Below, piece after piece: positions 12,146 to 27,197 of a DNA stretch of 64,000 bases. The notes below the pieces were generated by a model. It did no database searches, was not told where the DNA came from, and saw only the letters and a list, made by a program, of their open reading frames with translations. Position 1 is the first letter of the stretch; the number at the start of each line of letters is the position of its first letter. Where the stretch lies: contig NZ_LGCI01000010.1 of assembly GCF_001281525.1 (NCBI RefSeq), positions 672,869 through 736,868 on the forward strand, in the 5' to 3' direction. The position numbers and the translations under genes are program-made. This stretch comes from Lysinibacillus macroides. GTDB lineage: Bacteria > Bacillota > Bacilli > Bacillales_A > Planococcaceae.

Positions 12146-12186
12146 AAAAAAAGGTGGATGACTTTATTGCCATCCACTACTTTTTT
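12146..12186 (-). terminator. Intrinsic terminator of valS
   Basis: GTGGATG (12154-12160) pairs with CATCCAC (12171-12177), flanked by A and T runs that extend the stem. The valS stop codon overlaps the upstream arm. Confidence 0.8.
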
Positions 12187-14830
12187 ACATACTTTTCAAT
12201 TCTTCTAAACGTTTCAAGACAATCGCATGCTTGCTTTCATAATCTGCTAATTTTTCACGCTCTGCATTGACTAATGCTTCTGGTGCTTTTGCTACAAATT
12301 TCCCATTAGATAGCTTACCTGTTACAAGCTTCACTTCTTTTGCCCATTTCTCTAGCTCTTTTTCGAGACGAGCAATTTCTTCCTCTAGGTTAATCAGCCC
12401 TACAAGCGGTAAGAAAACTTGCGCACCTGTAACAACGGCTGTCATTGACTGACCAGGAGCCTCTAAGCCTTCACCTATTGTTAATGTTTCAGGGTTACAG
12501 AATTTTTCTAAATAGGCTTTATTTGCTTCAAGCACGGTTACTGTTGCAGCATCTTTCGCTGAAATAAACAATGGCACTTTTTTGCTCATTGGGGTATTCA
12601 CTTCTGCACGAATATTACGTACTGAACGTATAATATCCATTAGGAGCTTCATATTGTCTGCTTCTTCAGCAAAATGAAGGTCCGCACGCACGGTTGGCCA
12701 TGCAGCCACAGTAATGGAGTCACCATTGTGTGGTAAGTGCTGCCAAATTTCTTCTGTAATAAACGGCATAAATGGATGTAATAGACGCATTGTTTGATCA
12801 AGCACGTAAGCTAAAATAGAACGCGTTGTCTTTTTCGCTGCTTCATTCTCACCATAAAGTGGTAATTTCGCCATTTCAATATACCAGGAACAGAAATCAT
12901 CCCAAATGAAATTGTATAATTCGCGACCAACTTCACCAAATTCATAACGCTCTGCAAGAGAGGTTACACGTTCAATCGTTTCATTTAAGCGCGTTAAAAT
13001 CCATTTGTCAGCTACTGATTTTTCACCAGTTAAATCGATCTCATCATATGTCATACCATCCATATTCATAAGTGCAAAACGTGATGCATTCCAAATCTTA
13101 TTGGCAAAGTTCCATACTGCTTCTACTTTTTCCGTTGTATAGCGTAAATCTTGACCAGGTGATGAACCAGTAGCTAAGAAATAGCGTAATGAATCTGCAC
13201 CGTATTGTTCAATGACGTCCATTGGATCAACACCATTGCCAAGTGATTTACTCATTTTACGTCCCTCACCATCACGTACTAAGCCGTGAATTAATACATC
13301 TTTAAATGGACGTTGCCCTGTAAATTCAATGCCTTGGAAAATCATGCGAGACACCCAGAAGAAAATAATATCATAGCCAGTTACTAGCGTATTTGTTGGA
13401 TAGTAACGTTTATATTCTGCATTTGCCTCGTCTGGCCAGCCCATTGTAGAAAACGGCCATAGTGCAGAGGAAAACCATGTATCCAGGACATCTTCATCTT
13501 GCGTCCAATTTTCACTATCCGCTGGTGCTTCTTTTCCTACGTAAACTTCGCCTGTTTCGTTATGATACCATGCTGGAATTTGATGGCCCCACCATAATTG
13601 GCGAGAGATACACCAATCGCGAATATTTTCCATCCAGCGTGAATATGTGTTTTCAAAACGAGCTGGCACAAAGTGTACTTTCCCTGTTTCATCCTTTTGT
13701 AGCTCTAGGGAAGCATCTGCAAGCGGCTGCATTTTCACAAACCATTGTGCAGATAAATAAGGCTCTACAACAGCACCTGAACGCTCTGAATGACCAACAG
13801 AGTGCATATGCTCTTCAATTTTAAATAACACGCCAGCCTCTTGTAAATCGGCTACAATTTGCTGACGACATTCAAAACGATCCATACCTTGATATTTGCC
13901 AGCTAGCTCATTCATTGTGCCATCTTCATTCATCACAAGAATGCGCTCTAAATTATGACGATTCCCTACTTCAAAGTCATTCGGGTCATGCGCTGGTGTC
14001 ATTTTTACAACACCTGTACCAAAATCTTTATCTACGTAGTCATCCGCTACAATTGGAATTTCGCGTCCTACAATTGGTAAAATAACAGTTTTGCCAATTA
14101 AATGTTGGTAGCGCTCATCATCTGGATGCACAGCCACACCTGAGTCACCGAGCATTGTTTCGGGACGTGTTGTCGCAACTTCCACATGACCTGAACCATC
14201 AGCTAATGGATATTTCATGTGATAGAAAGCACCTTGCACATCCTGATAAATTACTTCTATATCCGATAATGCTGTTTTCGCTGCTGGGTCCCAGTTGATA
14301 ATGCGTTCACCACGGTAAATTAAACCTTTTTCATATAATTGTACAAAAACAGTTTTAACAGCATCTGATAATCCTTTATCTAGTGTAAAACGTTCACGTG
14401 TATAGTCTAAGCCAAGGCCAAGCTTTGCCCATTGGTCGCGAATATGTCCAGCATATTCCTCTTTCCATTCCCATGTTTTTTCAAGGAATTTTTCACGTCC
14501 TAAATCATAACGTGTACTATTATCTTCACGTAGCTTTGCTTCTACTTTTGCTTGTGTTGCGATACCTGCATGGTCCATTCCTGGTAACCATAATGCATCA
14601 TATCCTTGCATACGCTTCATGCGGATAAGTATATCTTGTAATGTTGTATCCCACGCATGTCCAAGATGGAGCTTACCTGTTACGTTCGGTGGTGGAATAA
14701 CGATGGAGTAGGGCTTTTTCCCGCTTTCAGGTTGTGCTTCGAAAAACTTTCCTTGTAACCACCATTCATAGCGACCAGCCTCAATGGACTGTGGATCATA
14801 CTTCGTTGGCATTGAAATGTTTTCTGTCAT
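12185..14830 (-). CDS. valS: Valyl-tRNA synthetase
   Basis: A class I aminoacyl-tRNA synthetase that charges tRNA-Val, 881 residues, the normal length. The HIGH-type motif is [12 protein letters not shown] (about residues 49-60), and the KMSKS motif is intact ([14 protein letters not shown], near residue 523). The CP1 editing domain lies between them ([19 protein letters not shown]), and the C-terminal coiled coil binds tRNA ([19 protein letters not shown]). It is expressed behind a T-box leader, so it is induced when uncharged tRNA-Val accumulates. Confidence 0.98.
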
Positions 14831-14886
14831 ATTAACTCCTCCTATTGTTTGAAAACTGTTGGTAAAGAAATGCTATTTATTTTTTT

Positions 14887-15125
14887 ACCCAATAAAAAAA
14901 CTCCTGTCGTCTAAAAGGACGAAGGAGTTTTAGTTCGCGGTACCACCTTTAATTCCAGCAGTGGTTAAGAATTTTTTCTTAGCCTACCCTACTGGCTCTT
15001 AATTCGGTAACGGTGTTTAACCGGCTTTAACTACTATTAGTTCACTAAAGCTGCTCAAGGGCTACCTTCAATTTCGTACAAATAGAAACTTTCCAGCTAC
15101 CATTTCCTCTCTATAAAATGTACAC
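14887..15125 (-). promoter_or_regulatory. T-box riboswitch leader of valS
   Basis: On the minus strand the T-box consensus AAGGTGGTACCGCGA lies at 14949-14935, immediately before a strong terminator, which is the standard antiterminator/terminator arrangement. Upstream about 170 bases form stem I and adjoining helices (GGTAGCTGGAAAG near the 5' end). Candidate valine codons occur in the internal-loop region near GAACTAATAGTAGTT, but I could not fix the specifier from sequence alone. The position before valS makes tRNA-Val the expected ligand. Confidence 0.93.
14894..14932 (-). terminator. Conditional terminator of the valS T-box
   Basis: On the minus strand AAAACTCCT pairs with AGGAGTTTT, continuing inward through CGTC/GACG, and ends in a T run. 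It competes with the antiterminator formed with the T-box sequence. Confidence 0.9.
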
Positions 15126-15246
15126 AAAATTTACTCTTCCCTATCATCGCATCTATATTGAATTTTCCTTATTGTACCGCAAAATCGTGTTATCTTTCAA
15201 GTGATTTCATTGTTTTTAGGAACTGTGAAAAGGAAGTGAATCATCA

Positions 15247-15441
15247 ATGCGTCGACGTAAATATAATCCATGGCTTTTACCGCCATGGCTACGACAAATT
15301 CGTTTCTATTGTCGAACAATTATCGTGCCTCTTTGTGCTTTTCAATTTATACGTGTCATTATTGTGCCAACATCGGGCGACCTTATTTTCTTATTGGTCT
15401 TGTTGCTTCTCTGCTACTTACTTTTGAAAGACATCATTTGA
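15247..15441 (+). CDS. Small basic membrane protein, unknown
   Basis: Of three overlapping plus-strand frames here, this one has a good Shine-Dalgarno (AAAAGGAAGTG, about ten bases before the ATG) and protein-like composition. An arginine-rich N-terminus (MRRRKYNPWLLPPWLRQIR) leads into two hydrophobic segments (about residues 22-39 and 45-60). It has 64 residues. It is divergent from the valS leader and its last 24 bases overlap the 3' end of the convergent SpoVID-like gene. No family was recognised. Confidence 0.5.
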   Translation: MRRRKYNPWLLPPWLRQIRFYCRTIIVPLCAFQFIRVIIVPTSGDLIFLLVLLLLCYLLLKDII

Positions 15442-16041
15442 AACACGGACTTTTAGCGGTGTATATTCTTCCGTTAAATCCCAAATCATTGAAGGTACTT
15501 CATGCCAAGAGCTTGATTCACGTACAACAATATGACTATCAGTTACTGTAACTGCCTCTTGGTGTGAAGCTGCTGCTACGCTAGTAGACTGCTTTACTGG
15601 CACACTTTCTTCCATAACCGTTAGTTGTTCTTCGTTCGTAGCATTCATCTGCGCTTTTTCCATAACAGGTTCAAGTTCATTAAAGACACTTGTGACTGTC
15701 CATTCTAACTGACACATTTGATTTGCGAGACTAGGACGAATATCCTTGATCATTAAATCTTTTACATCCGACTCTTTTGGTAAATCCACATGTAAAGGTA
15801 CTGCATACTCAAAATAGCCTGTGTCTCCTTGAATATCAAGTGCAGCAATGGCGATAATATCCTCTTGCCCCATATGAGTCTGCATATCCTGAAAATCAAA
15901 ACGTACATGTGCAGTAATATGGTAAATACCCATGAGTCGCAGTGAGTCCTCTAATTGCTTTGTCTGCCACTGTGGTTTAATTTGCACAGCCGCTATTTCT
16001 GTTGGGCAGCCATAGCCAGGAAAACAAAATGTTTCACACAT
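15418..16041 (-). CDS. SpoVID-like protein with only the N-terminal domain
   Basis: The first 125 residues resemble the N-terminal domain of SpoVID, the spore-coat encasement protein. There is a beta-rich stretch (LRLMGIYHITAHVRFDF) and later a segment around VPLHVDLPKESDV ending near QMCQLEWTVTSVFNEL. In B. subtilis spoVID lies between hemL and valS, which fits. The product is only 207 residues and ends without a LysM peptidoglycan-binding domain, unlike the much longer B. subtilis protein. The strong GGGGAGGG Shine-Dalgarno lies 30 bases before this ATG and only a few bases before an in-frame ATT ATT ATC. The real start may be a non-ATG codon about nine codons upstream. Confidence 0.6.
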   Translation of the reverse strand: MCETFCFPGYGCPTEIAAVQIKPQWQTKQLEDSLRLMGIYHITAHVRFDFQDMQTHMGQEDIIAIAALDIQGDTGYFEYAVPLHVDLPKESDVKDLMIKDIRPSLANQMCQLEWTVTSVFNELEPVMEKAQMNATNEEQLTVMEESVPVKQSTSVAAASHQEAVTVTDSHIVVRESSSWHEVPSMIWDLTEEYTPLKVRVSNDVFQK

Positions 16042-16142
16042 CTTCCAAGTTTTGTGTTCGATAATAATCCCTCCCCTTGCATCATATGACCACTCGGAGG
16101 CTAGTATGCTAGAACACTTACACTGATATACAAGTTACTACG

Positions 16143-16185
16143 AAAAAACGGCATACTAGAGGTGATCTTCTAGCATGCCATTTTT
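16143..16185. terminator. Bidirectional terminator after the CoxG-like gene
   Basis: GGCATACTAGA (16150-16160) pairs with TCTAGCATGCC (16169-16179) with one G-T pair. T runs follow on both strands. On the minus strand it ends the CoxG-like gene before the SpoVID-like gene. Confidence 0.8.
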
Positions 16186-16202
16186 ATTGTTAGTTACATT
16201 CA

Positions 16203-16649
16203 TTAAACATTTACTAATTTAATCTTATTGGCTACACGATCTGTTAGCATTTGTGTGGCCTTTGGTACGATAGGCTTGAAAATTGGATTTAAAACTGGGC
16301 CTGCTAATCCGCCAGCTGTTACTTCTAAAAAGCCTGTCATTTTCGTGTTTTCAGCATCAATGCTTTCCGCAAGAAAATAGCCATTCCCTGAGAAATTATC
16401 AGAAAGTCCTTTGAGCTCAAATGTTACTTTCGAAGGTGCCGCCCATTCTAAAATTGTAATCTCTACTTCTACTGTTTTTTTCAAAACACCCACATTCCCT
16501 TTAAAAGTCCATGTAGAATGTTTGTCGTCAATCATTTTATGTGCGTTATAGCCTGGGACAAGCTTCGCCCATTTCTCCATATCGCTTACGAAATCCCATA
16601 CATGTTCAATTCCTACAGGTACATCGACTGTATGTGTGCCAGTTGCCAT
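16203..16649 (-). CDS. CoxG-like SRPBCC-fold protein
   Basis: A 148-residue protein of the START/SRPBCC superfamily, close to the carbon monoxide dehydrogenase subunit G (CoxG) group. The opening (THTVDVPVGIEHVWDFVSDM, then WAKLVPGY) is characteristic, as is the glycine-rich loop in the second half. Such proteins bind hydrophobic ligands or tether partner enzymes to membranes. No CO dehydrogenase gene is nearby, so the specific role is unknown. It appears monocistronic, with its own terminator. Confidence 0.8.
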   Translation of the reverse strand: MATGTHTVDVPVGIEHVWDFVSDMEKWAKLVPGYNAHKMIDDKHSTWTFKGNVGVLKKTVEVEITILEWAAPSKVTFELKGLSDNFSGNGYFLAESIDAENTKMTGFLEVTAGGLAGPVLNPIFKPIVPKATQMLTDRVANKIKLVNV

Positions 16650-17116
16650 ATCAAACCACTACTTTCTATATATGAATAGCTTTATTATAAACGATTTCGC
16701 CCACATTTTGACTATGCTGAAAGATATAATTTTGACAAAAAACAGTCCGTTCCCCATCAATCTGGTAAGAAAACTAAAAAAACATGCCAGAGAAATTCCA
16801 GTATGGCTTACATCATTTATCGCCTTAATTGTACAAACACTTTATAGAAAGTAGCCATCGTTTTGGCAATATGCTCGAGAAACAAATAATGTCTCATACT
16901 GAAAGAATAGTAGAAACACAGATTTTTTCCTTTTTATCGGTGAAAAAGGTGTGCTACTACCCACTCAACTGCCATTCTTCGTCGCTATAAATAGTGTTTT
17001 TATTTTCACTTACTCTGTCACAAATAGATTCTTTTCCTATTATTTATCATTATTCAAAATTATACAAATCATTTATTTAAAATTAAAAGAAAACTTTTAA
17101 AATTATAAATTTCCGC
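16650..17116. other. Intergenic region between CoxG-like gene and yxe-like operon
   Basis: About 470 AT-rich bases. The open frame on the plus strand at 16636-16854 has no Shine-Dalgarno and odd composition, so I do not call it. No regulator gene is present despite the clear operator just downstream. Confidence 0.5.
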
Positions 17117-17145
17117 TTGAAAAAAACAAAGTAAACCAGTATACT
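17117..17145 (+). promoter_or_regulatory. Sigma-A promoter of the yxe-like operon
   Basis: TTGAAA at 17117-17122 and TATACT at 17140-17145 are separated by exactly 17 bases. The operon start codon is 55 bases beyond the -10, with GGAG upstream of it. Confidence 0.75.
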
Positions 17146-17151
17146 TTGTTT
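17124..17151 (+). promoter_or_regulatory. Palindromic operator over the operon promoter
   Basis: A perfect 10-base inverted repeat, AAACAAAGTA (17124-17133) and TACTTTGTTT (17142-17151), has an 8-base centre. It spans the spacer and the -10 element and runs past it, where a bound dimer would exclude RNA polymerase. The repressor is not encoded in the operon or next to it, and I do not recognise the box as a known consensus. Confidence 0.65.
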
Positions 17152-17199
17152 CATAATAAAGTTTAGTGAAATAGTTGGTTTTAAAAAGGAGACAATACC

Positions 17200-18564
17200 A
17201 TGCCGTCACATGTAATTGATATGATAATGTTGAAAAATAATTTTGGTACAGAAGAAATGCGCAATGTGTGGTCTGATGAAAATAGACTGCAAAAGCATAT
17301 AGAAGTAGAAATTGCTTTGACACAGGCAGAAGGTGAGCTTGGTGTGATCCCTGTGGAAGCAGCGGAGGAAATTGTGAAACAGGCCAGCCAAGCACACTTC
17401 GATATCGAACAGCTTGCTGCAAATATGGCCAAGCTCAAGCACTCACTGATGCCAACCATTAATGCCATCCAAGAAATTAGTGGTGAACATGGTGAATTTG
17501 TGCACTACGGTGCTACAACACAAGATATCGTTGATACAGGTACTATTTTACAGCTTAAAGAAGCACACCAAATTATTCAGCGCGATCTACTACAAGTAGC
17601 AGATGCCCTAGCCGTACTTGCCAAAGAACATAAGCTTACATTAATAGCAGGTCGTTCGCATGGTATGCAGGGCTTACCCACAACATTCGGCTTTAAAATG
17701 GCTGTTGTATTAAGCGAAATATTGCGCCATATTGAGCGACTACAACAAATTACAGAACGCGTTTTTGTTGGCAATATTAGTGGAGGTGTTGGTACATACG
17801 CATCATTTGGAGAGCAAGGCATCGCTATTGAGCAACGTGCTATGGAAATATTGGCACTTCAAGCACCTGAAATTTGTTGGCATTCCTCACGCGATCGCTT
17901 GGCAGAATATGCAAGTGTACTTGGTCTCATTAGCGGTTCGCTTGGTAAATTAGCCAATGAATTTTACAACTTAATGCGCACAGAAATTGATGAAGTAGAG
18001 GAGCCTTTCTCTAAAGGAAATGTCGGTTCATCCACAATGCCGCATAAACGCAATCCTGCCATGTTTGAGGGGATTGCGAGCTTAACCCGCCCTATTTTGC
18101 AAAATGTATCGCTTATGCAGCATTCCTTAATTGTTGAACATGAGCGTGATGCAATGTCCTGGCGTGCAGAATGGATTGCCTTGCCTGAAATTACAATTTA
18201 TTTATCATCTCAATTAGCTTCCACGATTGCTGCATTACGAGGCTTAGTGGTCAAGCCGCAAAATATGTTGAAAAACCTAGATAAATTAGGTGGTTTACTC
18301 TTATCTGAAAAGATAATGTTTGAGCTTTCTAGCCAATTTGGTAAGCAAACCGCTCACCATATCATCTACGAAATTTCAATGGAAGCACTCGAAAACGATG
18401 TGCCATTTAAAGAGCTATTAGCGAAGGATAAGCGAATTACGGGCACTTTCTCAGTGGAGCAATTAGCAAGCATTTTTGATTATGCCTCTTATACTGGGCT
18501 TGCACCAGCGAAAGTAGAGGAAGTTTTAGCGCATTATGAACAAATAAAAAAGGAGGATCGCTAA
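17200..18564 (+). CDS. Fumarase/aspartase-superfamily lyase (PurB/PcaB-like), candidate 2-succino-cysteine lyase
   Basis: A 454-residue member of the superfamily whose enzymes eliminate fumarate from succinyl adducts or perform related chemistry. The three conserved regions are present: HYGATTQD (about residue 102), GRSHGMQGLP (about 150) and the catalytic-serine signature GSSTMPHKRNP (about 275). It is the first gene of an operon whose other six genes match B. subtilis yxeL to yxeQ in order and kind, and it occupies the position of the monooxygenase gene yxeK. Inferred reaction: cleavage of S-(2-succino)cysteine or its N-acetyl form to fumarate plus (N-acetyl)cysteine. An adenylosuccinate lyase role is less likely because there is no purine gene nearby. 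It overlaps the next gene as TAATG. Confidence 0.85.
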   Translation: MPSHVIDMIMLKNNFGTEEMRNVWSDENRLQKHIEVEIALTQAEGELGVIPVEAAEEIVKQASQAHFDIEQLAANMAKLKHSLMPTINAIQEISGEHGEFVHYGATTQDIVDTGTILQLKEAHQIIQRDLLQVADALAVLAKEHKLTLIAGRSHGMQGLPTTFGFKMAVVLSEILRHIERLQQITERVFVGNISGGVGTYASFGEQGIAIEQRAMEILALQAPEICWHSSRDRLAEYASVLGLISGSLGKLANEFYNLMRTEIDEVEEPFSKGNVGSSTMPHKRNPAMFEGIASLTRPILQNVSLMQHSLIVEHERDAMSWRAEWIALPEITIYLSSQLASTIAALRGLVVKPQNMLKNLDKLGGLLLSEKIMFELSSQFGKQTAHHIIYEISMEALENDVPFKELLAKDKRITGTFSVEQLASIFDYASYTGLAPAKVEEVLAHYEQIKKEDR

Positions 18565-19058
18565 TGACCTATACTTATCGTGCAGCCACACTGGATGATG
18601 CAGAAATATTGCGCGATTTACTCCATGCTTCTTACGCGGAAAATTTACAATATGGTGTACATTTTGATGCAACAACCGTCACATTACAGCAAGTACAATC
18701 ACATTTAAGCTATAATCTTTGCTATTTTTTAGAGGACGACGGGGCGGTGCTATCCACTGTATCGCTTCGTATGCCATGGGGACCAAATCCCGGTCCCTGC
18801 CCTGTTCCACATATTGGCTGGTTTGCTAGCCTCCCAAATAGCGGAAAACAAGGCATTGGCTCTGCCTTGTTGCAATGGCTGGAAACAACCATATTGGAAG
18901 AGCAGTTGAAAGTACCCTATGTAACACTAGGCACAGCCGACTCTCATCCATGGCTTGGTAGTATGTATGAAAAAAAGGGCTATGTGAAATTTGGTCAAAA
19001 AGATTTAGGTAAGGGACATCTTACAAACTATTACAAAAAGAACATTTTGGAGGCATAA
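18564..19058 (+). CDS. yxeL: GNAT N-acetyltransferase, YxeL-like
   Basis: A GNAT-fold acetyltransferase of 164 residues. The acetyl-CoA binding loop (GKQGIGSALLQWL) is near residue 92, and the C-terminal strand region (GSMYEKKGYVKFGQ) is standard. In B. subtilis YxeL N-acetylates S-(2-succino)cysteine. That assignment is carried over because length and operon position match. Its ATG overlaps the lyase stop, and AAGGAGG in the end of the lyase gene serves as Shine-Dalgarno. The symbol rests on collinearity. Confidence 0.8.
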   Translation: MTYTYRAATLDDAEILRDLLHASYAENLQYGVHFDATTVTLQQVQSHLSYNLCYFLEDDGAVLSTVSLRMPWGPNPGPCPVPHIGWFASLPNSGKQGIGSALLQWLETTILEEQLKVPYVTLGTADSHPWLGSMYEKKGYVKFGQKDLGKGHLTNYYKKNILEA

Positions 19059-19061
19059 CAG

Positions 19062-19871
19062 ATGAAAAAGAAAATTTTACTGACAGCATTGATTGCTGTA
19101 TTCGCACTTGTATTAACAGCATGTGGTGGCACAAAGGAAGAAGGAGCAGACAAAGGCTCTTCTGATGAAAAAAATGTATTACGTGTTGGTTCAACTGGTC
19201 AATCTTATCCAAACGGCTATAAAGATGGGGATAAATTAGTGGGCTTTGATGTTGAAGTAATTGAAGCAATTGCCAAAAACTTAGACTACTCTGTAGAATG
19301 GGTGAACTCGGATTTTAGTGGCCTTATGGGACAATTAGAGGCTGATAAAATTGATACAATTGCCAATGCTGTTGCTGTAACAGATGAACGTAAAGAAAAA
19401 TATGCTTTCTCTGACGCTTATTCTTATGCAGGGGTGACGATTGTTACACATAAAGATAATGCAGATATTAATACACTGGATGATTTAAAAGGTAAAACAG
19501 TATCAGGTGTACTTGGCTCAAACAATGTGAAAAACTTAGAGAATTTCGATAAAAATGGAGAAATTACGATTCGCACATATGAAAATCGCGATGGTGCACA
19601 ATTAGAAGCAATTAATAAACGTGTAGATGGCTATGTCAATGCTAAAGCTTCTTTATTGGCAGAAATTCAAAAAAGTGATTTACCATTAAAATTCGTTGGC
19701 GAACCATTTGTCTATGAGGATGTTGCCTTCCCATTCCGCAAAACAGCTGATAATGAGGAATTGATTGCAGCCATTAATGCAGAAATTCAAAAATTACGTG
19801 AAGATGGTACATTAAAAAAGCTATCTGAAAAATATTACGGTGGCGAAGATATCACTGTTAAAGTAGAATAA
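19062..19871 (+). CDS. yxeM: Amino-acid ABC transporter substrate-binding lipoprotein, YxeM-like
   Basis: An extracellular solute-binding protein of family 3, which binds polar amino acids such as cystine. The lipoprotein signal peptide ends in the lipobox LTAC with Cys at residue 21. A mature-protein linker rich in charged residues follows, then the two-lobed fold (KLVGFDVEVIEAIAKNL, LDDLKGKTVSGVLGSN). GGAGG lies eight bases before the ATG. With the following permease and ATPase it forms one importer, expected to bring in the cysteine adduct. Confidence 0.9.
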   Translation: MKKKILLTALIAVFALVLTACGGTKEEGADKGSSDEKNVLRVGSTGQSYPNGYKDGDKLVGFDVEVIEAIAKNLDYSVEWVNSDFSGLMGQLEADKIDTIANAVAVTDERKEKYAFSDAYSYAGVTIVTHKDNADINTLDDLKGKTVSGVLGSNNVKNLENFDKNGEITIRTYENRDGAQLEAINKRVDGYVNAKASLLAEIQKSDLPLKFVGEPFVYEDVAFPFRKTADNEELIAAINAEIQKLREDGTLKKLSEKYYGGEDITVKVE

Positions 19872-19898
19872 TCATTATTTTGTACAGAAAGGCGTCAG

Positions 19899-20576
19899 AT
19901 GGATATGAACTTAGATTTTTCTTATATGATTGAAGTTCTCCCTGCCATTTTAAAGTACATTCCAATCACATTATTTATGGCAATAATCGCAATGATTATT
20001 GCCGTAGCTATTGGTTTAGCTTTAGCACTGGTATATAAAACAAACTTCAAAATTTTAATTTACGCAGCGAATGTCTATATTTCTTTCTTCCGAGCAATTC
20101 CCATGCTCGTCCAACTATTTTTAATTTACTATGGTTTACCGCAACTGTTCCCTGTTTTTACAAAGCTAGATGCTGTCACGGCCGCTATTATCGGTTTAGG
20201 CTTTAAGCAGGCTGCCTTTTTAGCTGAAATTTTCCGTGCCGCCTTCGCTTCTGTTGAAAAAGGACAGTTAGAAGCTTGTCTTGCAGGAGGTATGTCAAAA
20301 TTCCAAGCATATCGTCGTATTATTTTGCCCCAAGCTTTGCGCAACGCACTGCCAGGTACGGGTAATACGTTTATTAGCTTAATTAAAGAAACATCCCTTG
20401 CTTTTACACTTGGTGTAGTCGAAATTTTCGCAGAGGCAAAAATGCAAGCCTCTAACTCCTTCCGCTATTTTGAAGCCTATTTAACCGTAGCATTAGTGTA
20501 TTGGGCAATTATCGTTGTCTATACCTATGTGCAAAAGCTGATCGAGAAATATTTGGATCGCCCATATAAAACCTAG
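19899..20576 (+). CDS. yxeN: Amino-acid ABC transporter permease, YxeN-like
   Basis: A polar-amino-acid permease of the His/Glu/Gln/Arg type, 225 residues with about five membrane segments. The EAA loop that docks the ATPase is recognisable (EACLAGGMSKFQAYRRIILP, near residues 128-147). It is probably a homodimer since only one permease gene is present. AAAGGCG precedes the ATG at the right distance. Confidence 0.92.
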   Translation: MDMNLDFSYMIEVLPAILKYIPITLFMAIIAMIIAVAIGLALALVYKTNFKILIYAANVYISFFRAIPMLVQLFLIYYGLPQLFPVFTKLDAVTAAIIGLGFKQAAFLAEIFRAAFASVEKGQLEACLAGGMSKFQAYRRIILPQALRNALPGTGNTFISLIKETSLAFTLGVVEIFAEAKMQASNSFRYFEAYLTVALVYWAIIVVYTYVQKLIEKYLDRPYKT

Positions 20577-20588
20577 AGGTGACGATTG

Positions 20589-21344
20589 ATGTTAAAAGTA
20601 ACAAATCTAGTAAAAAGCTTTGGTGCATTAGATGTCTTAAAAGGCATTAGCTTTGAAATTAAGCAAGGCGAAGTGTTGGCAATTATCGGTCCTTCTGGCT
20701 CTGGAAAATCGACACTGATCCGCTGCTTAAATTATTTAGAGCAGCCCCAACAAGGCATCATCGAAATTGATAATGCACGTTTAGATGCCGCAAAACCAAC
20801 GAAAAAAGATATTCAACATCTACGCTCCAAAACAGCCATGGTGTTCCAAAACTATAATTTATATAAAAATAAAACAGCATTAGAAAATGTCACAGAATCA
20901 TTAATTGTGGTGAAAAAGACCCCGAAAGCGGAAGCCAATAAAATGGGTATGCAGCTTTTAAGCGAGGTCGGCTTAGAGGCAAAGCGTGATAATTACCCTG
21001 TCACAATGTCTGGTGGACAACAGCAGCGTGTGAGTATTGCACGTGCGCTTGCACAAAAGCCGCATGTTATTTTATTTGATGAGCCCACTTCTTCCCTTGA
21101 CCCAGAGCTAGTGCAAGAAGTATTACATGTCATCAAAAAATTAGCAGAGCAAAAGATAACAATGATTATTGTGACACATGAGATGGATTTTGCACGAGAA
21201 GTCGCCGACCATATTATTTTTATGGCGGATGGTCATATCGTGGAGCAAGGACCTGCCAAGGAATTTTTTGCAAATGCACAGCAGGAGCGCACGAAAAAGT
21301 TTATTCGACAAATTACTTCAGAAAGTGAGGATACCATTTTATGA
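20589..21344 (+). CDS. yxeO: Amino-acid ABC transporter ATPase, YxeO-like
   Basis: ATP-binding subunit of the importer. Walker A (GPSGSGKSTLIRCL), the Q-loop region (AMVFQNYNLY), the signature (MSGGQQQRVSIARALA), Walker B (VILFDEPTSSLDPE) and the H-loop (VTHEM) are all intact. The frame opens one codon earlier at a TTG. The ATG at 20589 has AGAGGTG nine bases before it and is preferred (251 residues). Its stop overlaps the ATG of the next gene as ATGA. Confidence 0.94.
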   Translation: MLKVTNLVKSFGALDVLKGISFEIKQGEVLAIIGPSGSGKSTLIRCLNYLEQPQQGIIEIDNARLDAAKPTKKDIQHLRSKTAMVFQNYNLYKNKTALENVTESLIVVKKTPKAEANKMGMQLLSEVGLEAKRDNYPVTMSGGQQQRVSIARALAQKPHVILFDEPTSSLDPELVQEVLHVIKKLAEQKITMIIVTHEMDFAREVADHIIFMADGHIVEQGPAKEFFANAQQERTKKFIRQITSESEDTIL

Positions 21345-22492
21345 CATCTATTACGATAACAGATGCTTTACAGCAACAGTTAATTGCCTATCGACGCGAA
21401 TTACATGCGTACCCTGAACTCTCCATGCAAGAATTTGAAACAACAAAACGCATTAGTAATTGGTTACAGCAACACGATATCACGATTTTAACGTATCCGC
21501 TTAGCGTTGGCGTAATTGCAGAAGTGCGTGGCGAGCAGCAAGGGCCAACGATTGCGATTCGTGCAGATATTGACGCACTGCCAATTGAAGAACAAACAGA
21601 TGAGCCATTTCGTTCAAAAAATGCAGGAGTAATGCATGCCTGTGGTCATGATTTTCATACGTCCTCTATTTTAGGAACAGCCATTTTATTACAACAGCAG
21701 CGCCATTTATTAAAAGGCACTGTGCGCTTTATTTTCCAGCCTTCTGAGGAAACTGCACAAGGCGCAGAGTATGTAGCAAAGGCGGGCGTATTAGAAGATG
21801 TAGAAGCCATTTTTGGCATGCATAATAAGCCTGATTTACCAGTTGGTACAATTGGTATTAAAGCAGGCCCATTAATGGCAAGTGTTGACCGTTTTGAATT
21901 AGACATTATCGGTACTGGCGGACATGCAGGTATTCCTGAAAGCACGGTAGACCCTATCGTCATCAGCAGTCAAATTGTTACCGCATTCCAATCCATTGTT
22001 AGCCGTAATATCTCTTCCTTCGATAATTCCGTTTTATCTGTAACAAAATTACAAGCAGGCAATACATGGAATGTGATTCCAGAAAAAGCGGAGCTAGAGG
22101 GTACTGTACGTACATTCCAAGCCACGTCACGCGCTACTATTCCACAGCGTATGAAAGCATTGGCAGAAGGCATCGCTGCAAGCTATGGCGCAAAAGCTGA
22201 TTTCAGATGGTTCCCTTATTTACCAACTGTCTATAACGATGCACGTTTTACAGAAGTATTACAGGAGGCTGCTCGCATCAGTGGTCATCAAGCAGTTGAA
22301 GCTGATATGGTGCCTGCTGGTGAAGATTTCGCCTTTTATCAAGAGCGTATTCCCGGCTATTTTGTATGGGTAGGTGTAGATGGACCGTTCGGCTGGCATC
22401 ATCCACAATATCGTTTAAATGAAGATGCGATACCTGTGGCTGCCACTTATTTTGCAAATCTTGCGGTGAGCGTGTTAGATCAATGGCAGTAA
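21341..22492 (+). CDS. yxeP: M20-family amidohydrolase/deacylase, YxeP-like
   Basis: A metal-dependent amidohydrolase of the M20D group, 383 residues, which includes N-acyl-amino-acid deacylases. Metal-binding motifs are present: MHACGHDFHT (near residue 97), EETAQGAEY (near 134) and the C-terminal AGEDFAFY. In B. subtilis YxeP deacetylates N-acetylcysteine, the last step of S-(2-succino)cysteine use. A matching role is inferred here. Ten bases of its 3' end overlap the next gene. Confidence 0.88.
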   Translation: MTSITITDALQQQLIAYRRELHAYPELSMQEFETTKRISNWLQQHDITILTYPLSVGVIAEVRGEQQGPTIAIRADIDALPIEEQTDEPFRSKNAGVMHACGHDFHTSSILGTAILLQQQRHLLKGTVRFIFQPSEETAQGAEYVAKAGVLEDVEAIFGMHNKPDLPVGTIGIKAGPLMASVDRFELDIIGTGGHAGIPESTVDPIVISSQIVTAFQSIVSRNISSFDNSVLSVTKLQAGNTWNVIPEKAELEGTVRTFQATSRATIPQRMKALAEGIAASYGAKADFRWFPYLPTVYNDARFTEVLQEAARISGHQAVEADMVPAGEDFAFYQERIPGYFVWVGVDGPFGWHHPQYRLNEDAIPVAATYFANLAVSVLDQWQ

Positions 22493-23778
22493 ACCATATT
22501 ACAAGGCGCTTTGTTCATCAACTATTTTTAAAGCCTTTAGATATTGCGGCAATTGAAGATGCGAAGCGTGGACTCATTGATTTTGTCGCTGTTACAAACT
22601 GTGGCAAAGAGGATGCAGGCGTACATAAATTATTACAGCTCGCCTGTGGAGGGACAAGCAAGGTCATTGGACACCCGATTTATACAACACCAGAGCAGGC
22701 TGCTTTAATTAACGGCTTTATGGCACATGCACTAGACTTTGATGATGTACATCATGAATTACGAGGGCATCCAAGTGCTGTTTTACTACCGACATTATTT
22801 GCTTTATGTGATGAAGATACAACAGGTATACGCTTTATCCAAGCCTATGCCATTGGTGTAGAGGCGATGGCCAAGCTTGCCCTTTCCCTCTCCAATGTTC
22901 ACTATGAAAAAGGCTGGCATAATACCTCAACGATTGGCATTGTTGGTGCAGCTATTGCAGGCGCTTATTTAATCGGCTTAACAGTGCATGACACATGTCG
23001 TACAATCGGCTTTGCCACAACTATGGCGAGCGGAATGCGAATTCATTTTGGTACAGAAACAAAACCTTTACATGCAGGTATTGCTGCCAAGCATGCGATT
23101 GAAGCAATTCGTTTTGCACAAGTCGGCATGCATGTCAATGACAATAGCCTAGAGGGATACATTGGCTTTTTATCGCTCTATGGTGAAAATACGCCGAAAA
23201 AAGCAGAGGCATTATTGCTGGATGTAACATCTGCAACTTGGCGCATTTCGTCACCAGGATTATGGTTTAAGCTTTATCCTTGCTGCTCGGGGTCTTATTT
23301 TGGCATTGATGCAGCACAACAGATTGGCCCACTTGCTGTCGAGGAAATTGAAGACATTCATATTACCTTCTCTCATTATAGCGATGCAGCACTTGTTATT
23401 CGCGAACCCAAAACGGGGGAAGAAGGTCGTTTTAGCATTGAATATATCGTGTCATTAATTTTAGCAAACAGACCTTTACATCTAGCTTCTTTCCTACCAG
23501 AGCCGATTGATGACACAGTGCAACAATATATGAAAAAAGTAAGACGCTCAAATGACCTTGAAGCCGTATCGAAGTATACACAAATAGATATTCGCTTAAA
23601 AAATGGCACACAATTATCTGCAAGAGGAATCAATCCAAAGGGAGCCCCTTCTAATCCATTAACAACAGTAGAATTAGAGAACAAGCTCACTTCAGCCACA
23701 GAGCAAGCTGATACTATTATTGCCACTATCCGGGCATTAAATAGCTCAAAGGTTTCTTCACTCTTACAACTTATTTAA
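22483..23778 (+). CDS. yxeQ: MmgE/PrpD-family protein, YxeQ-like
   Basis: A 431-residue member of the MmgE/PrpD family, which includes 2-methylcitrate dehydratase. The conserved region FMAHALDFDDVHHELRGHPS (near residues 76-95) and a later KLYPCCSGSYFGIDA motif are present. The role of YxeQ in the S-(2-succino)cysteine pathway is not established, so its retention as the last gene here suggests a real function. The ATG lies inside the end of the previous gene, so translation is coupled. The operon ends 20 bases later at a terminator. Confidence 0.87.
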   Translation: MAVNHITRRFVHQLFLKPLDIAAIEDAKRGLIDFVAVTNCGKEDAGVHKLLQLACGGTSKVIGHPIYTTPEQAALINGFMAHALDFDDVHHELRGHPSAVLLPTLFALCDEDTTGIRFIQAYAIGVEAMAKLALSLSNVHYEKGWHNTSTIGIVGAAIAGAYLIGLTVHDTCRTIGFATTMASGMRIHFGTETKPLHAGIAAKHAIEAIRFAQVGMHVNDNSLEGYIGFLSLYGENTPKKAEALLLDVTSATWRISSPGLWFKLYPCCSGSYFGIDAAQQIGPLAVEEIEDIHITFSHYSDAALVIREPKTGEEGRFSIEYIVSLILANRPLHLASFLPEPIDDTVQQYMKKVRRSNDLEAVSKYTQIDIRLKNGTQLSARGINPKGAPSNPLTTVELENKLTSATEQADTIIATIRALNSSKVSSLLQLI

Positions 23779-23797
23779 TCATTTAACAGGCTAGAAT

Positions 23798-23832
23798 AAG
23801 GGCTAGGCAGAAAAAATTTTTGCCCAGCTCTT
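23798..23832 (+). terminator. Terminator of the yxe-like operon
   Basis: AAGGGCTAGGCA (23798-23809) pairs with TGCCCAGCTCTT (23821-23832) using G-T pairs. A short T-rich tail follows. Confidence 0.7.
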
Positions 23833-23842
23833 TCTTGTTTAT

Positions 23843-23935
23843 TTATAGAAAATAATGAAAGAAAAAAGAAACCGATAAAATTGCAAGTGTGCCTACGCCA
23901 AAAATGGCTATCACTTTTACCATATCTCTTTTCAA
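23843..23935 (-). CDS. 30-residue single-span membrane peptide
   Basis: A longer frame opens at 24061, but the only strong Shine-Dalgarno (AAGGAGG) lies inside it, seven bases before TTG at 23935. This gives a 30-residue product: a basic start (MKRDMVKVIAIF), one membrane helix to the end and a terminal aromatic/His tail (SFFFHYFL). The codon pattern upstream of the TTG is not protein-like. The function is unknown. Confidence 0.55.
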   Translation of the reverse strand: MKRDMVKVIAIFGVGTLAILSVSFFFHYFL

Positions 23936-24144
23936 GCCACTTCCTCCTTCATATAAATCCAATCCTTTCTTATTTATTCTAAAACCGAACGCAAAGTTCA
24001 TTGTTTCACAACATATAAAAGGCAGCATTCCATTATTTAAAAAATAATACGCTTTTTTCATTTTTTTCAGGCATATTTTAATTACAAAGCAATATATTTC
24101 TAGTAAAATAATAACATATTACTATTTTACTAGGAGGGAATCAA

Positions 24145-25647
24145 TTGGGAAAATTAAGAATTATCATTCTATTGTTGTTTTGTTTATTAATCGGATCAGG
24201 AAATAACAGTGTTAATGCATCCTCAGGTATATCAATTTACATAAACGATGAGAAACAATGGTTTAGTCATCAAGCACTCATTGAACATGGTGTTACACTT
24301 GTACCGTTAAGGGGAATTTTTGAGGAACTTGGCGCAGAAGTCACATGGAATCGAGAAAATAAAACTGTTTATGCTTCAAAAGGGAATGTAAGTATAGCAC
24401 TAAAAATAGGGTCGACAAATGCAAAGATCAATGGCAATACAGTAACATTATCAGTTCCAGCCCAAGCCCATAGCGGACAAACACTTGTACCTTTAAGATT
24501 TATTAGTGAATCATTAGGGGCAAATGTTCAATGGGATCCAATAAGTCAAAGGATAACAATTACAGAAGACTTAAACATAGTTACAGAAGATTCATATATA
24601 ATGACAGAACAGTCAAGTAATAAGGAAACCCAAAAGCCTAAATCACCAAAAACAGAGAAAAAAGAACAGCCTATTTTAAGTCTAGGGGAAACGTTTGCAG
24701 ATGAACAAATCGAGGTGACAGTTAAGGATATAGAATATGTACACCGCATAAATAAGGGATTTAAAGTTTATCTTTCTGTCACAAATAAATCTACAAAGCC
24801 ATTACAACAACCTGGTGGTTTACAGTTTAAATTGAATAATGCTCTGTATGAGGATGAAGTAAATATGTCTGGATATAGCCATCATTTTGAATCAAACGGC
24901 TATATTTATCCAGGTGAAACAAGAGATGGCTATTACCAGTGGCTTTTTGATAAAGATGTAAAAATTGAAGAAATAGAATTTTATATGATGGAAAATGGCT
25001 TTTTGAAGCAATTTAAAGCGAAGTGGCAAGGAGAAGGGAAAAACGATCATACATTATTAGAAAATGAAAAAGTTGACAATAACATTGAACATAATAATAC
25101 GCAATTTGAGAACAACATTGAGTATAAACCAGATAGTACACAATTTTCGGATAGTATTGGAGATAAAACTTACCCTCTACAGCAAGGTGCTAGTTTAGCT
25201 GAAGTTGAAAACTTTTTAACACAATACTATAGTAGTATCACTACTCCTATGGGAAGCTTAAATCTTTCCTATCATTTAATGTATTTTGATGGTTCATTGG
25301 ATATGTATACAGTCTATACTAAATATGGAGATTATGTACGAAGTTTCTTATACACGATTGACAGATATCAACGTGGTGACACGAAAGATCTCTATATAGA
25401 TGAGAATAAATTAATGGAGACAATATCCATATTAAAGAATTTTCAAAAGGAAATATACGCTGTAATGGAATATGTATACCCGAATAAAAAAATACAGGGT
25501 AGCTTTCACGATAGTTGGTACAGATATCCCAATCTCAGAATGGACCTAGTTACACGTTCAAATTATGAATGGCAGAATTATAAATTTGCTGATTGGAATG
25601 GGCATACTTTTGAATATACTATGGGATTTTACTTTCTTGAAGAATAG
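24145..25647 (+). CDS. Secreted stalk-domain (copper amine oxidase N-terminal-like) protein with DUF4352-type domain
   Basis: A 500-residue protein starting at TTG 24145, with AGGAGGG before it. The signal peptide is followed by two copper-amine-oxidase-N-like stalk repeats (VTLVPLRGIFEELGAEVTWN and TLVPLRFISESLGANVQWD, about residues 50-135), a common cell-surface module. A charged linker follows, then a beta-sandwich resembling DUF4352 (residues about 175-290) and a C-terminal domain of unknown type (about 345-500) rich in tyrosine. It stands alone between two terminators. The function is unknown. Confidence 0.85.
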   Translation: MGKLRIIILLLFCLLIGSGNNSVNASSGISIYINDEKQWFSHQALIEHGVTLVPLRGIFEELGAEVTWNRENKTVYASKGNVSIALKIGSTNAKINGNTVTLSVPAQAHSGQTLVPLRFISESLGANVQWDPISQRITITEDLNIVTEDSYIMTEQSSNKETQKPKSPKTEKKEQPILSLGETFADEQIEVTVKDIEYVHRINKGFKVYLSVTNKSTKPLQQPGGLQFKLNNALYEDEVNMSGYSHHFESNGYIYPGETRDGYYQWLFDKDVKIEEIEFYMMENGFLKQFKAKWQGEGKNDHTLLENEKVDNNIEHNNTQFENNIEYKPDSTQFSDSIGDKTYPLQQGASLAEVENFLTQYYSSITTPMGSLNLSYHLMYFDGSLDMYTVYTKYGDYVRSFLYTIDRYQRGDTKDLYIDENKLMETISILKNFQKEIYAVMEYVYPNKKIQGSFHDSWYRYPNLRMDLVTRSNYEWQNYKFADWNGHTFEYTMGFYFLEE

Positions 25648-25666
25648 GAAATAATATAGCTTAATT

Positions 25667-25696
25667 AAGTCACCTCATCTTAGGTGGCTTTTTTTA
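25667..25696 (+). terminator. Terminator of the stalk-domain gene
   Basis: AAGTCACC (25667-25674) pairs with GGTGGCTT (25683-25690) with one G-T pair, followed by seven T. Confidence 0.85.
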
Positions 25697-25904
25697 TTAT
25701 TAAAGGATGGGTGACTGTTTATTGTGGTCATAGCAGGGACAAGTTTATTATTCTTATTGTTAGAAAGAAGGTTGTACAAAAAGTAAAAACCTTTTTGCAC
25801 AATCCTCCATTTTTCTTTTGACCGACTGATAGGAAGTGATAATTAGTTTACATGTTCATTGTGAAATATATTACTTCACTAAAAGAACATACTTTCCTAT
25901 CCTT
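25697..25904. other. Inverted repeats downstream of hemL
   Basis: Two inverted repeats lie between the convergent stalk-domain gene and hemL. One pairs GGTTGT-CAAAAA around 25770-25782 with 25792-25805. A wider one pairs GATAGGAA (25828-25835) with TTCCTATC (25894-25901). Neither has a good T run, so they are weak candidates for the hemL 3' end. Confidence 0.35.
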
Positions 25905-27197
25905 TTATCTCGCTAATTGTGCAAATACCTTATGGAAAGCCTCTACTGTTTTCGCAATATGCTCCTCTGTATGGGCTGTTGAAATAAATAAACCTTCAAA
26001 TTGAGATGGAGGTAGGAATATACCTTCCTCTGCCATCAAACGGAAGTATTCCGCGAATAATTGTAAATCTGCTGTTTTAGCTGATGCAAAATCAACAACA
26101 TCCTCATTTGTAAAGAAGAAGCCAATCATTGAGCCTGCACGATTAACCGTATGTGGGATATTATATTTCGTTGCCGCTTCACGGAAACCTGTTTCTAGCT
26201 GGTCGCCTAGCTTTTTAAAGTAGTCATATGTGCTATGATCTAAGCGTGATAACGTTTCATAGCCTGCTGTCATTGCTAATGGATTACCTGATAATGTGCC
26301 AGCTTGATAAATAGGGCCTGCTGGTGCGACCTGCTCCATAATTTCTTTTGTTCCGGCAAACGCCCCTACAGGAAGACCGCCACCAATTACTTTTCCTAAC
26401 GTTGTTATATCAGGTGTTACGCCAAAATACTGTTGTGCACAGCCATAATCTACGCGGAAGCCTGTCATGACTTCGTCAAAGATTAATAATGCAGCATGCT
26501 CAGATGTAAGGGCACGTAAGCCTTCTAGGAAACCTGGCTGCGGTGGTACAACACCCATATTTCCTGCAACTGGCTCCACAATGACTGCTGCTAGCTCTGC
26601 GCCAAATTTTTCGAAAATCACTTTTGCCCCTTCTAAATCATTGTAGGCAACTGTCAACGTATTGCGAGCAATATCTGCAGGTACACCAGGACTATCAGGT
26701 AGACCTAATGTGGCAACACCAGAACCTGCTTTAATTAATAATGAGTCACCATGACCATGATAAGACCCTTCGAACTTTAAAATCTTATCACGCCCTGTAA
26801 CCCCACGAGCTACACGTAATGCAGACATCGTAGCCTCTGTTCCTGAAGAAACAAAACGAATCATTTCCATACCTGGTAAACGCTCTAATACTAATTGAGC
26901 TAAACGATTTTCTGTATAGCTTGGAGCACCGAAGGAAGAACCCTTCGCAGCTGTGTCAGCAATGGCTTTCACTACCTCTGGATGTGTATGTCCTAAAATC
27001 AGTGGACCCCAAGACAATACATAATCAATATATTCATTGCCATCAATATCTTTAATAATCGCACCATGACCAGATTCCATAAAAATCGGGTCCATATTGA
27101 CTGATTTGAATGCACGTACTGGACTGTTAACACCACCTGGCATTAACTGCACAGCTTCAGCATAGGCTTGTTTTGATTTTTCGTAAGATCGCGTCAT
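25905..27197 (-). CDS. hemL: Glutamate-1-semialdehyde 2,1-aminomutase
   Basis: A PLP-dependent class III aminotransferase-fold enzyme that converts glutamate-1-semialdehyde to 5-aminolevulinate, the second step of the C5 haem route. It has 430 residues. Visible motifs are [11 protein letters not shown] near the N-terminus, the [16 protein letters not shown] cofactor region, FDEVMTGFR, and the active-site lysine in [16 protein letters not shown]. It is the last gene of hemAXCDBL. GAGGAG precedes the ATG, one base downstream of the hemB stop. B. subtilis has a second paralogue, and this copy is assigned by position. Confidence 0.97.

Follow-up and report, generated by a model that had tools for sequence, protein, structure and literature searches.

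A seven-gene yxe operon with a lyase in the place of YxeK

The DNA examined here, which we call the window, is a stretch of 64,000 nucleotides from Lysinibacillus macroides (assembly GCF_001281525.1, contig NZ_LGCI01000010.1, positions 672,869 to 736,868 of the forward strand), and our subject is an operon of the yxe type within it that seems to serve the salvage of S-(2-succino)cysteine (2SC). The coding span of this operon (17200-23778) consists of seven open reading frames (ORFs) on the plus strand, with neighbours that overlap by up to 10 bases or stand up to 27 bases apart. The first gene (17200-18564; 454 amino acids) encodes a lyase with Lyase_1 and ADSL_C domains (Pfam and NCBIfam), identified below as an S-(2-succino) lyase (2SL). 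It is followed by yxeL (18564-19058; 164 amino acids), a GNAT acetyltransferase (PF00583) that probably N-acetylates 2SC, and by the components of an ATP-binding cassette (ABC) transporter: the family 3 substrate-binding lipoprotein yxeM (19062-19871; 269 amino acids; SBP_bac_3), the amino-acid type permease yxeN (19899-20576; 225 amino acids; BPD_transp_1) and the amino-acid type ATPase yxeO (20586-21344; 252 amino acids, with a TTG start; ABC_tran). The best NCBIfam match of YxeM is a cystine-binding protein, under the cut-off of that model. The last two genes are yxeP (21341-22492; 383 amino acids), an M20 amidohydrolase (Peptidase_M20; TIGR01891 above cut-off) and predicted N-acetylcysteine deacetylase, and yxeQ (22483-23778; 431 amino acids), which has the N- and C-terminal MmgE_PrpD domains (PF03972 and PF19305) and is proposed here to be an epimerase of the succinyl carbon. 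The original prediction had described seven tightly packed genes of these families in this order, as is borne out by the ORF list, Pfam and NCBIfam; its span covers the same genes, but it starts at 17117, where a promoter-like -35 hexamer begins, whereas the coding sequence starts at 17200.

The identical seven-gene order is found in four further genomes of the family (G102, G019, G131 and G106), and because it recurs in this way the arrangement appears to be more than chance. Compared with a locus of the yxeK type (L033), the window proteins are 54% (YxeL), 52% (YxeM), 60% (YxeN), 66% (YxeO) and 61% (YxeP) identical, while YxeL shares 43% identity with its counterpart in Enterococcus italicus DSM 15952 (L083). 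Compared by way of L033, the Bacillus subtilis yxeKLMNOPQ (scm) operon shares six of the seven genes and, according to the original prediction, their order. The difference lies in the cleaving enzyme: YxeK of B. subtilis is a flavin mononucleotide (FMN) monooxygenase that yields oxaloacetate, whereas 2SL yields fumarate (PMC9706529).

The lyase belongs to the 2SL clade

In approximately 2000 genomes, Hillmann et al. (2022) identified 102 yxe loci, of which 67 have yxeK and 27 have a class I lyase, named 2SL in that study; both genes are present together in three cases. This and what follows from that study is taken from extracts of it (PMC9706529). A B. subtilis yxeK deletion is complemented by the 2SL gene of either E. 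italicus or Dickeya dadantii, and the enzyme converts N-acetyl-2SC to fumarate and N-acetylcysteine, with an efficiency on this substrate that is about 60-fold (D. dadantii) or 320-fold (E. italicus) better than on 2SC. B. subtilis ScmP (YxeP) deacetylates N-acetylcysteine, and in the extracts of PMC12757645 it has no detectable activity on N-acetyl-2SC. As in these published 2SL-type loci, the lyase of the window replaces yxeK and is accompanied by yxeL, yxeMNO and yxeP. In E. italicus, however, yxeQ precedes the lyase whereas it stands last in the window. We counted as a yxe locus any with at least three of the five enzymatic components, and in the window the orthologues of YxeL, YxeMNO, YxeP and YxeQ all adjoin the lyase.

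Named genome contigs were scanned with two peptide patterns to sample lyase loci, and 155 stretches matched, representing 68 distinct loci. One of these was the yxe locus of E. italicus (L083). Its lyase, which judging from strain and locus is the assayed protein E6LDH5, shares 58% identity with that of the window over residues 1-447. In a tree of 56 sequences, which include 37 yxe-type lyases (that of the window among them), a lyase from Metabacillus arenae (L066) and seven adenylosuccinate lyases (PurB), all 37 sampled yxe-type lyases and L066 form one clade (support 100/99). This clade and the 58% identity identify the window protein as a class I lyase orthologous to the assayed 2SL. The seven PurB form a separate clade (100/100) that includes L003 from the window's own genome, in which there are seven Lyase_1 matches. 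Moreover, the PurB rows have R-Y (7/7 each) where the 2SL rows have N14 (33/38) and F15 (38/38). R322 is Arg in all 38 rows of 2SL, Ser in all seven of PurB and not Arg in at least 10 of the 11 other relatives, and we regard it as a candidate specificity residue of 2SL; its neighbour W321 is common to 8 of the 11 remaining relatives.

These results also bear on the notion that the gene encodes PurB or some other amino-succinate lyase that lies beside the yxe genes by chance. The protein passes the PurB model TIGR00928 (385.5 bits against a cut-off of 326.2), which speaks against its assignment to 2SL, and automatic annotation may therefore name the gene purB; its best match, NF006500, is likewise named adenylosuccinate lyase, though it falls under its cut-off. 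However, the fully supported clade apart from PurB, the grouping of the genome's second Lyase_1 protein (L003) with PurB, the replacement of R-Y and the seven-gene order kept across genomes make this notion very improbable. We reject it on the tree and the residues, and given the tree we take TIGR00928 to be an over-wide model.

Proposed route from 2SC to cysteine

We consider it highly probable that the window contains a 2SL-type yxe (scm) operon for the import, N-acetylation, lyase cleavage and deacetylation of 2SC to cysteine. YxeMNO would import 2SC and YxeL would N-acetylate it, after which the lyase would split N-acetyl-2SC by beta-elimination into fumarate and N-acetylcysteine, from which YxeP would release cysteine. 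We infer acetylation, cleavage and deacetylation in the window's host by orthology to enzymes shown in other species.

The original prediction had suggested that the lyase stands in for YxeK with acetylation and deacetylation retained, and that it may act on the N-acetylated adduct to give fumarate and N-acetylcysteine. The former agrees with the orthology and the published 2SL loci, and the latter with the orthology to assayed relatives that prefer this substrate; the superfamily tree that had been suggested as a check on clustering with PurB places the lyase outside the PurB clade. The idea that this would be a third version of the route has to be given up, because cleavage of N-acetyl-2SC by 2SL in yxe loci was published in 2022: the published 2SC lyases are the same enzyme in the same operon type, and the route is the known second one. 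The window operon is one more member of these 2SL-type operons and by itself only adds a host, since the exchange of a monooxygenase for a lyase has already been described. The new and testable part is the role of YxeQ.

YxeQ as a possible epimerase

Cysteine adds to fumarate without catalysis to give both diastereomers, and lyases of this superfamily carry out a stereospecific elimination. On the expectation that the cleaving enzyme takes a single diastereomer, we propose that YxeQ removes and returns the proton at the succinyl C2 and would in this way interconvert both diastereomers of 2SC or N-acetyl-2SC. We hold an epimerase of the succinyl carbon to be slightly favoured by the evidence, a judgement kept separate from that on the operon as a whole. 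Searches of the open part of PubMed Central, which covers neither the discovery paper of 2018 nor that on YxeK of 2022, and the papers cited here gave no statement on epimerisation of succinated cysteine by YxeQ.

The PDB matches of the window protein are, in order, 7bra (from B. subtilis and deposited as IRG1, which from the protein length and the PDB match we take to be YxeQ itself), the near-identical 7e9d, and then iminodisuccinate (IDS) epimerase at 2.8e-46; cis-aconitate decarboxylases follow at 8.1e-35 and weaker. Apart from the B. subtilis protein, no characterised relative is closer to YxeQ than IDS epimerase. Extracts of a 2025 study of MmgE/PrpD proteins (PMC12290011) give H85, D88, H99, H150, K198 and K266 as the putative catalytic residues of IDS epimerase, with His99 and Tyr145 as bases, and according to those of PMC7347537 conservation of the active-site residues is complete between IDS epimerase and the B. 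subtilis protein. In our alignment H82, D85, H96, Y141, H146, K194 and K263 of the window YxeQ face H85, D88, H99, Y145, H150, K198 and K266, so that all seven are retained. Among 77 YxeQ rows (one locus is present twice), five of these positions (H82, H96, H146, K194 and K263) never vary; Asp stands at position 85 in 76 rows and Tyr at position 141 in 74.

Two known systems resemble what we propose. Cokesa et al. reportedly described in 2004 that iminodisuccinate degradation in Agrobacterium tumefaciens BY6 proceeds by an epimerase and a stereoselective C-N lyase. There, as proposed for YxeQ, an MmgE/PrpD epimerase works with a stereoselective lyase; the bond cleaved is C-N rather than C-S, and we know of no acetylation step in that system. 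The second is the (S)-(R)-methylsuccinate isomerase, another MmgE/PrpD protein, which shares the residue set and lets a stereoselective partner use both isomers (extracts of PMC12290011), and which differs in its substrate and its gene cluster, that of itaconate and methylsuccinate degradation. 2SC is a C2-substituted succinate, and thus of the same chemical type as the substrates of these two enzymes.

Linkage of YxeQ to the lyase

Loci that were found by their lyase are a fair test of a partnership with YxeQ. We counted partners within 7 kb of the lyase in 70 distinct loci (lyase identity of at least 45%) from 29 genera or higher groups. A first count, from which L027 and L107 were dropped for having no lyase, came to 71, and became 70 because L026 and L040 are one locus; the 70 are not independent, as 20 are from Gilliamella and 11 from Paenibacillus. 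YxeL is found in 65 of the 70 loci (27 of the 29 groups), YxeQ in 62 (28 groups), YxeP in 42 (21 groups) and a YxeK-like gene in four. The Gilliamella loci (L063 and 19 others) all have no YxeP within 7 kb, a deacetylase elsewhere in these genomes not having been searched for, and 19 of the 20 keep YxeQ.

The eight loci without YxeQ within this distance are of several kinds. In L095 it is 9 kb away and in L060 about 17 kb away, still on the lyase's contig, while in L062 the lyase is at a contig end and YxeQ is elsewhere in the genome. L106 has a short flank and a lyase in two pieces, and neither its genome nor that of L077 (P. senegalensis) has a YxeQ at 1e-20. In L047, L049 and L050 (Bacillus and Niallia) a YxeK-like monooxygenase occupies the YxeQ slot, and two of these three genomes have no YxeQ at 1e-20, which might suggest that YxeK makes YxeQ dispensable beside 2SL. 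We give this idea little weight. The third genome keeps an unlinked YxeQ (L110), one of the YxeQ-less genomes is a metagenome-assembled genome, and the loci are close kin; in L090, the fourth locus to contain a YxeK-like gene, YxeQ is present as well; and the monooxygenase in the slot shares only 59-61% identity with YxeK of the L033 operon, whereas the seven other operonic YxeK share 73-75% with it.

The enterobacterial lyases were sampled by a family-level search centred on Acerihabitans (198 genomes), which found the lyase at 1e-90 in 25 genomes, 11 of them at 55-58% identity. By coordinates, YxeQ lies near the lyase in four of these 11 (G708, G818, G662 and G693) and elsewhere in the genome, at 38-40% identity, in six (G816, G779, G762, G770, G679 and G832), while G729 has only an MmgE/PrpD protein of 31%. 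In a quick tree the six unlinked YxeQ group with the linked enterobacterial ones (support 100).

Several observations weigh against an epimerase that works with the lyase. L077 has the lyase and, at 1e-20, no YxeQ in its genome, and of the seven enterobacterial loci fetched from among these 11, five are without YxeQ in the locus (two have it). Of all partners YxeQ shows the lowest conservation (mean identity 0.39) and the weakest correlation of its distances with those of the lyase (0.72, against 0.77-0.84 for the others). Moreover, the seven-residue set is complete in all three MmgE/PrpD proteins examined from unrelated settings (L038, L204 and L205), and it therefore counts against a decarboxylase without proving an epimerase; the Tyr position is His in the proteins of L181, L183 and L186, Val in L066 and Lys in L097.

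The strongest competing explanation is that the epimerase idea is wrong and YxeQ has some other role in the pathway; it might, for instance, act on a different succinated thiol, be a second enzyme of cleavage or have no catalytic function. To this explanation we assign a considerable probability, somewhat short of even. It is in line with the entry of YxeQ as of 'unknown function' in the 2022 survey (extracts of PMC9706529), with a residue set that is not specific to epimerases, and with the unlinked YxeQ of the six enterobacterial genomes and its absence in L077. On the other side stand the fold and the listed residues, which are common to two enzymes that epimerise or isomerise C2-substituted succinates, and the recurrent pairing of YxeQ with the lyase. 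Far weaker is the reading of YxeQ as a cis-aconitate decarboxylase, which has the PDB title of its best match 7bra (IRG1) and a common fold family in its favour and which we reject on residues and published phylogeny: neither H277 nor Y318 of human IRG1 is retained by the B. subtilis protein (extracts of PMC7347537), the window has C268 and L304 at these positions (alignment with mouse IRG1, 7br9), with Cys in all 77 rows, the match to IDS epimerase is better than that to the decarboxylases (2.8e-46 against 8.1e-35), and the extracts of PMC12290011 place the B. subtilis protein outside both decarboxylase clusters, note no evidence of activity and judge that it probably has a different function, which they leave undetermined.

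If YxeQ is indeed an epimerase, this would explain why it accompanies two unrelated cleaving enzymes, and work on 2SC with mixtures of diastereomers would need re-reading.

Distribution of YxeQ and the lyase

Matches to YxeQ at E <= 1e-60 occur in 6 of the 151 family genomes and in 10 of the 398 class genomes. Five of the six family genomes have the whole seven-gene operon, while the sixth (G099) has only YxeN, YxeO, YxeP and YxeQ; its shortened operon (L027, 8239-12162) has no lyase, YxeL or YxeM within the 18 kb examined. Nine of the ten class genomes have YxeQ in a yxe locus, eight with YxeK and one, that of the window, with 2SL; in the tenth (G164) the protein is 35% identical and lies in what reads by eye as an acyl-CoA-type setting. 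These family and class loci were found via YxeQ and so necessarily contain it. The lyase is found at 1e-90 in only two of the 398 class genomes, that of the window and G110, whose protein is a 40% relative without yxe genes. Elsewhere in the window's genome the best match to YxeK is 53% identical and adjoins, by eye, ABC-transporter genes of another type, and we do not take it as YxeK.

Other pairings of lyases with MmgE/PrpD proteins

More distant lyases also occur beside MmgE/PrpD genes. For instance, those of L181-L186 (45-47% identity; six fetched of seven listed) have such a gene directly adjoining in all six cases and no YxeL, and the MmgE/PrpD proteins are 26-29% identical to YxeQ. In L191 and L192 the two genes are 3-5 kb apart; in L191 a fumarate-reductase-type flavoprotein (Pfam) lies between them, and a TRAP transporter and fumarase subunits are recognised by eye. 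No MmgE/PrpD match was found in the 13-19 kb examined around each of six other lyase relatives of 37-43% identity (L187-L190, L193 and L039). With about the same modest lean as for YxeQ itself, and provided that YxeQ is an epimerase, we suggest that a fumarase-superfamily lyase and an MmgE/PrpD epimerase form a recurring module that handles both diastereomers of C2-substituted succinates. Its cases would be iminodisuccinate degradation and 2SC salvage, and further ones would be the unassigned pairs in L181-L186, L191/L192 and L066; if so, such pairs could help to find further routes by which succinyl adducts are salvaged.

A few loci have gene contents of their own. In M. arenae (L066, 5838-11890) a lyase inside the 2SL clade is found with an MmgE/PrpD gene 31% identical to YxeQ and with neither YxeL nor YxeP, together with, by eye, a tripartite tricarboxylate transporter and a LysR regulator; here 2SL is perhaps reused for a non-acetylated substituted succinate. 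The Paenibacillus locus L077 contains a fumarate-reductase-type flavoprotein, a 2Fe-2S protein, an AstE/AspA-type deacylase and a nitroreductase (Pfam), and L060, also from Paenibacillus, has extra genes resembling this set by eye; the flavoprotein of these loci might draw off fumarate. An iron-containing alcohol dehydrogenase family protein (PF00465) lies near 2SL in L176 (10808-11878; enterobacterial) and L097 (6899-7981; Streptococcaceae), and in L092 (Clostridium sp.) a mandelate racemase/enolase superfamily protein (PF13378; 11908-13089) follows a YxeQ-lyase-YxeL trio.

The region upstream of the operon

A promoter-like site, TTGAAA-17-TATACT, lies at 17117..17145 on the plus strand; it is a consensus match only, and the 23 such sites across the region compare with a shuffle mean of 23.1, that is, no excess. 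A perfect inverted repeat of 10 bases with an 8-base spacer (17124-17151) covers its -10 element. This is the sole exact copy in the genome, two other places matching with three mismatches, and a reversed control pattern also gave one match per strand. Among the upstream stretches compared, the repeat is nearly kept (one mismatch) in G102 and was not found in those of L026, L028 and L029, and the case for a conserved operator does not extend beyond G102. An Rfam scan of 14500-26000 at the gathering threshold gave no RNA leader for the operon; its only match is a T-box leader on the minus strand (RF00230; 14912-15156; 146.9 bits), upstream of a minus-strand ORF (12185-14830) that reads by eye as valyl-tRNA synthetase.

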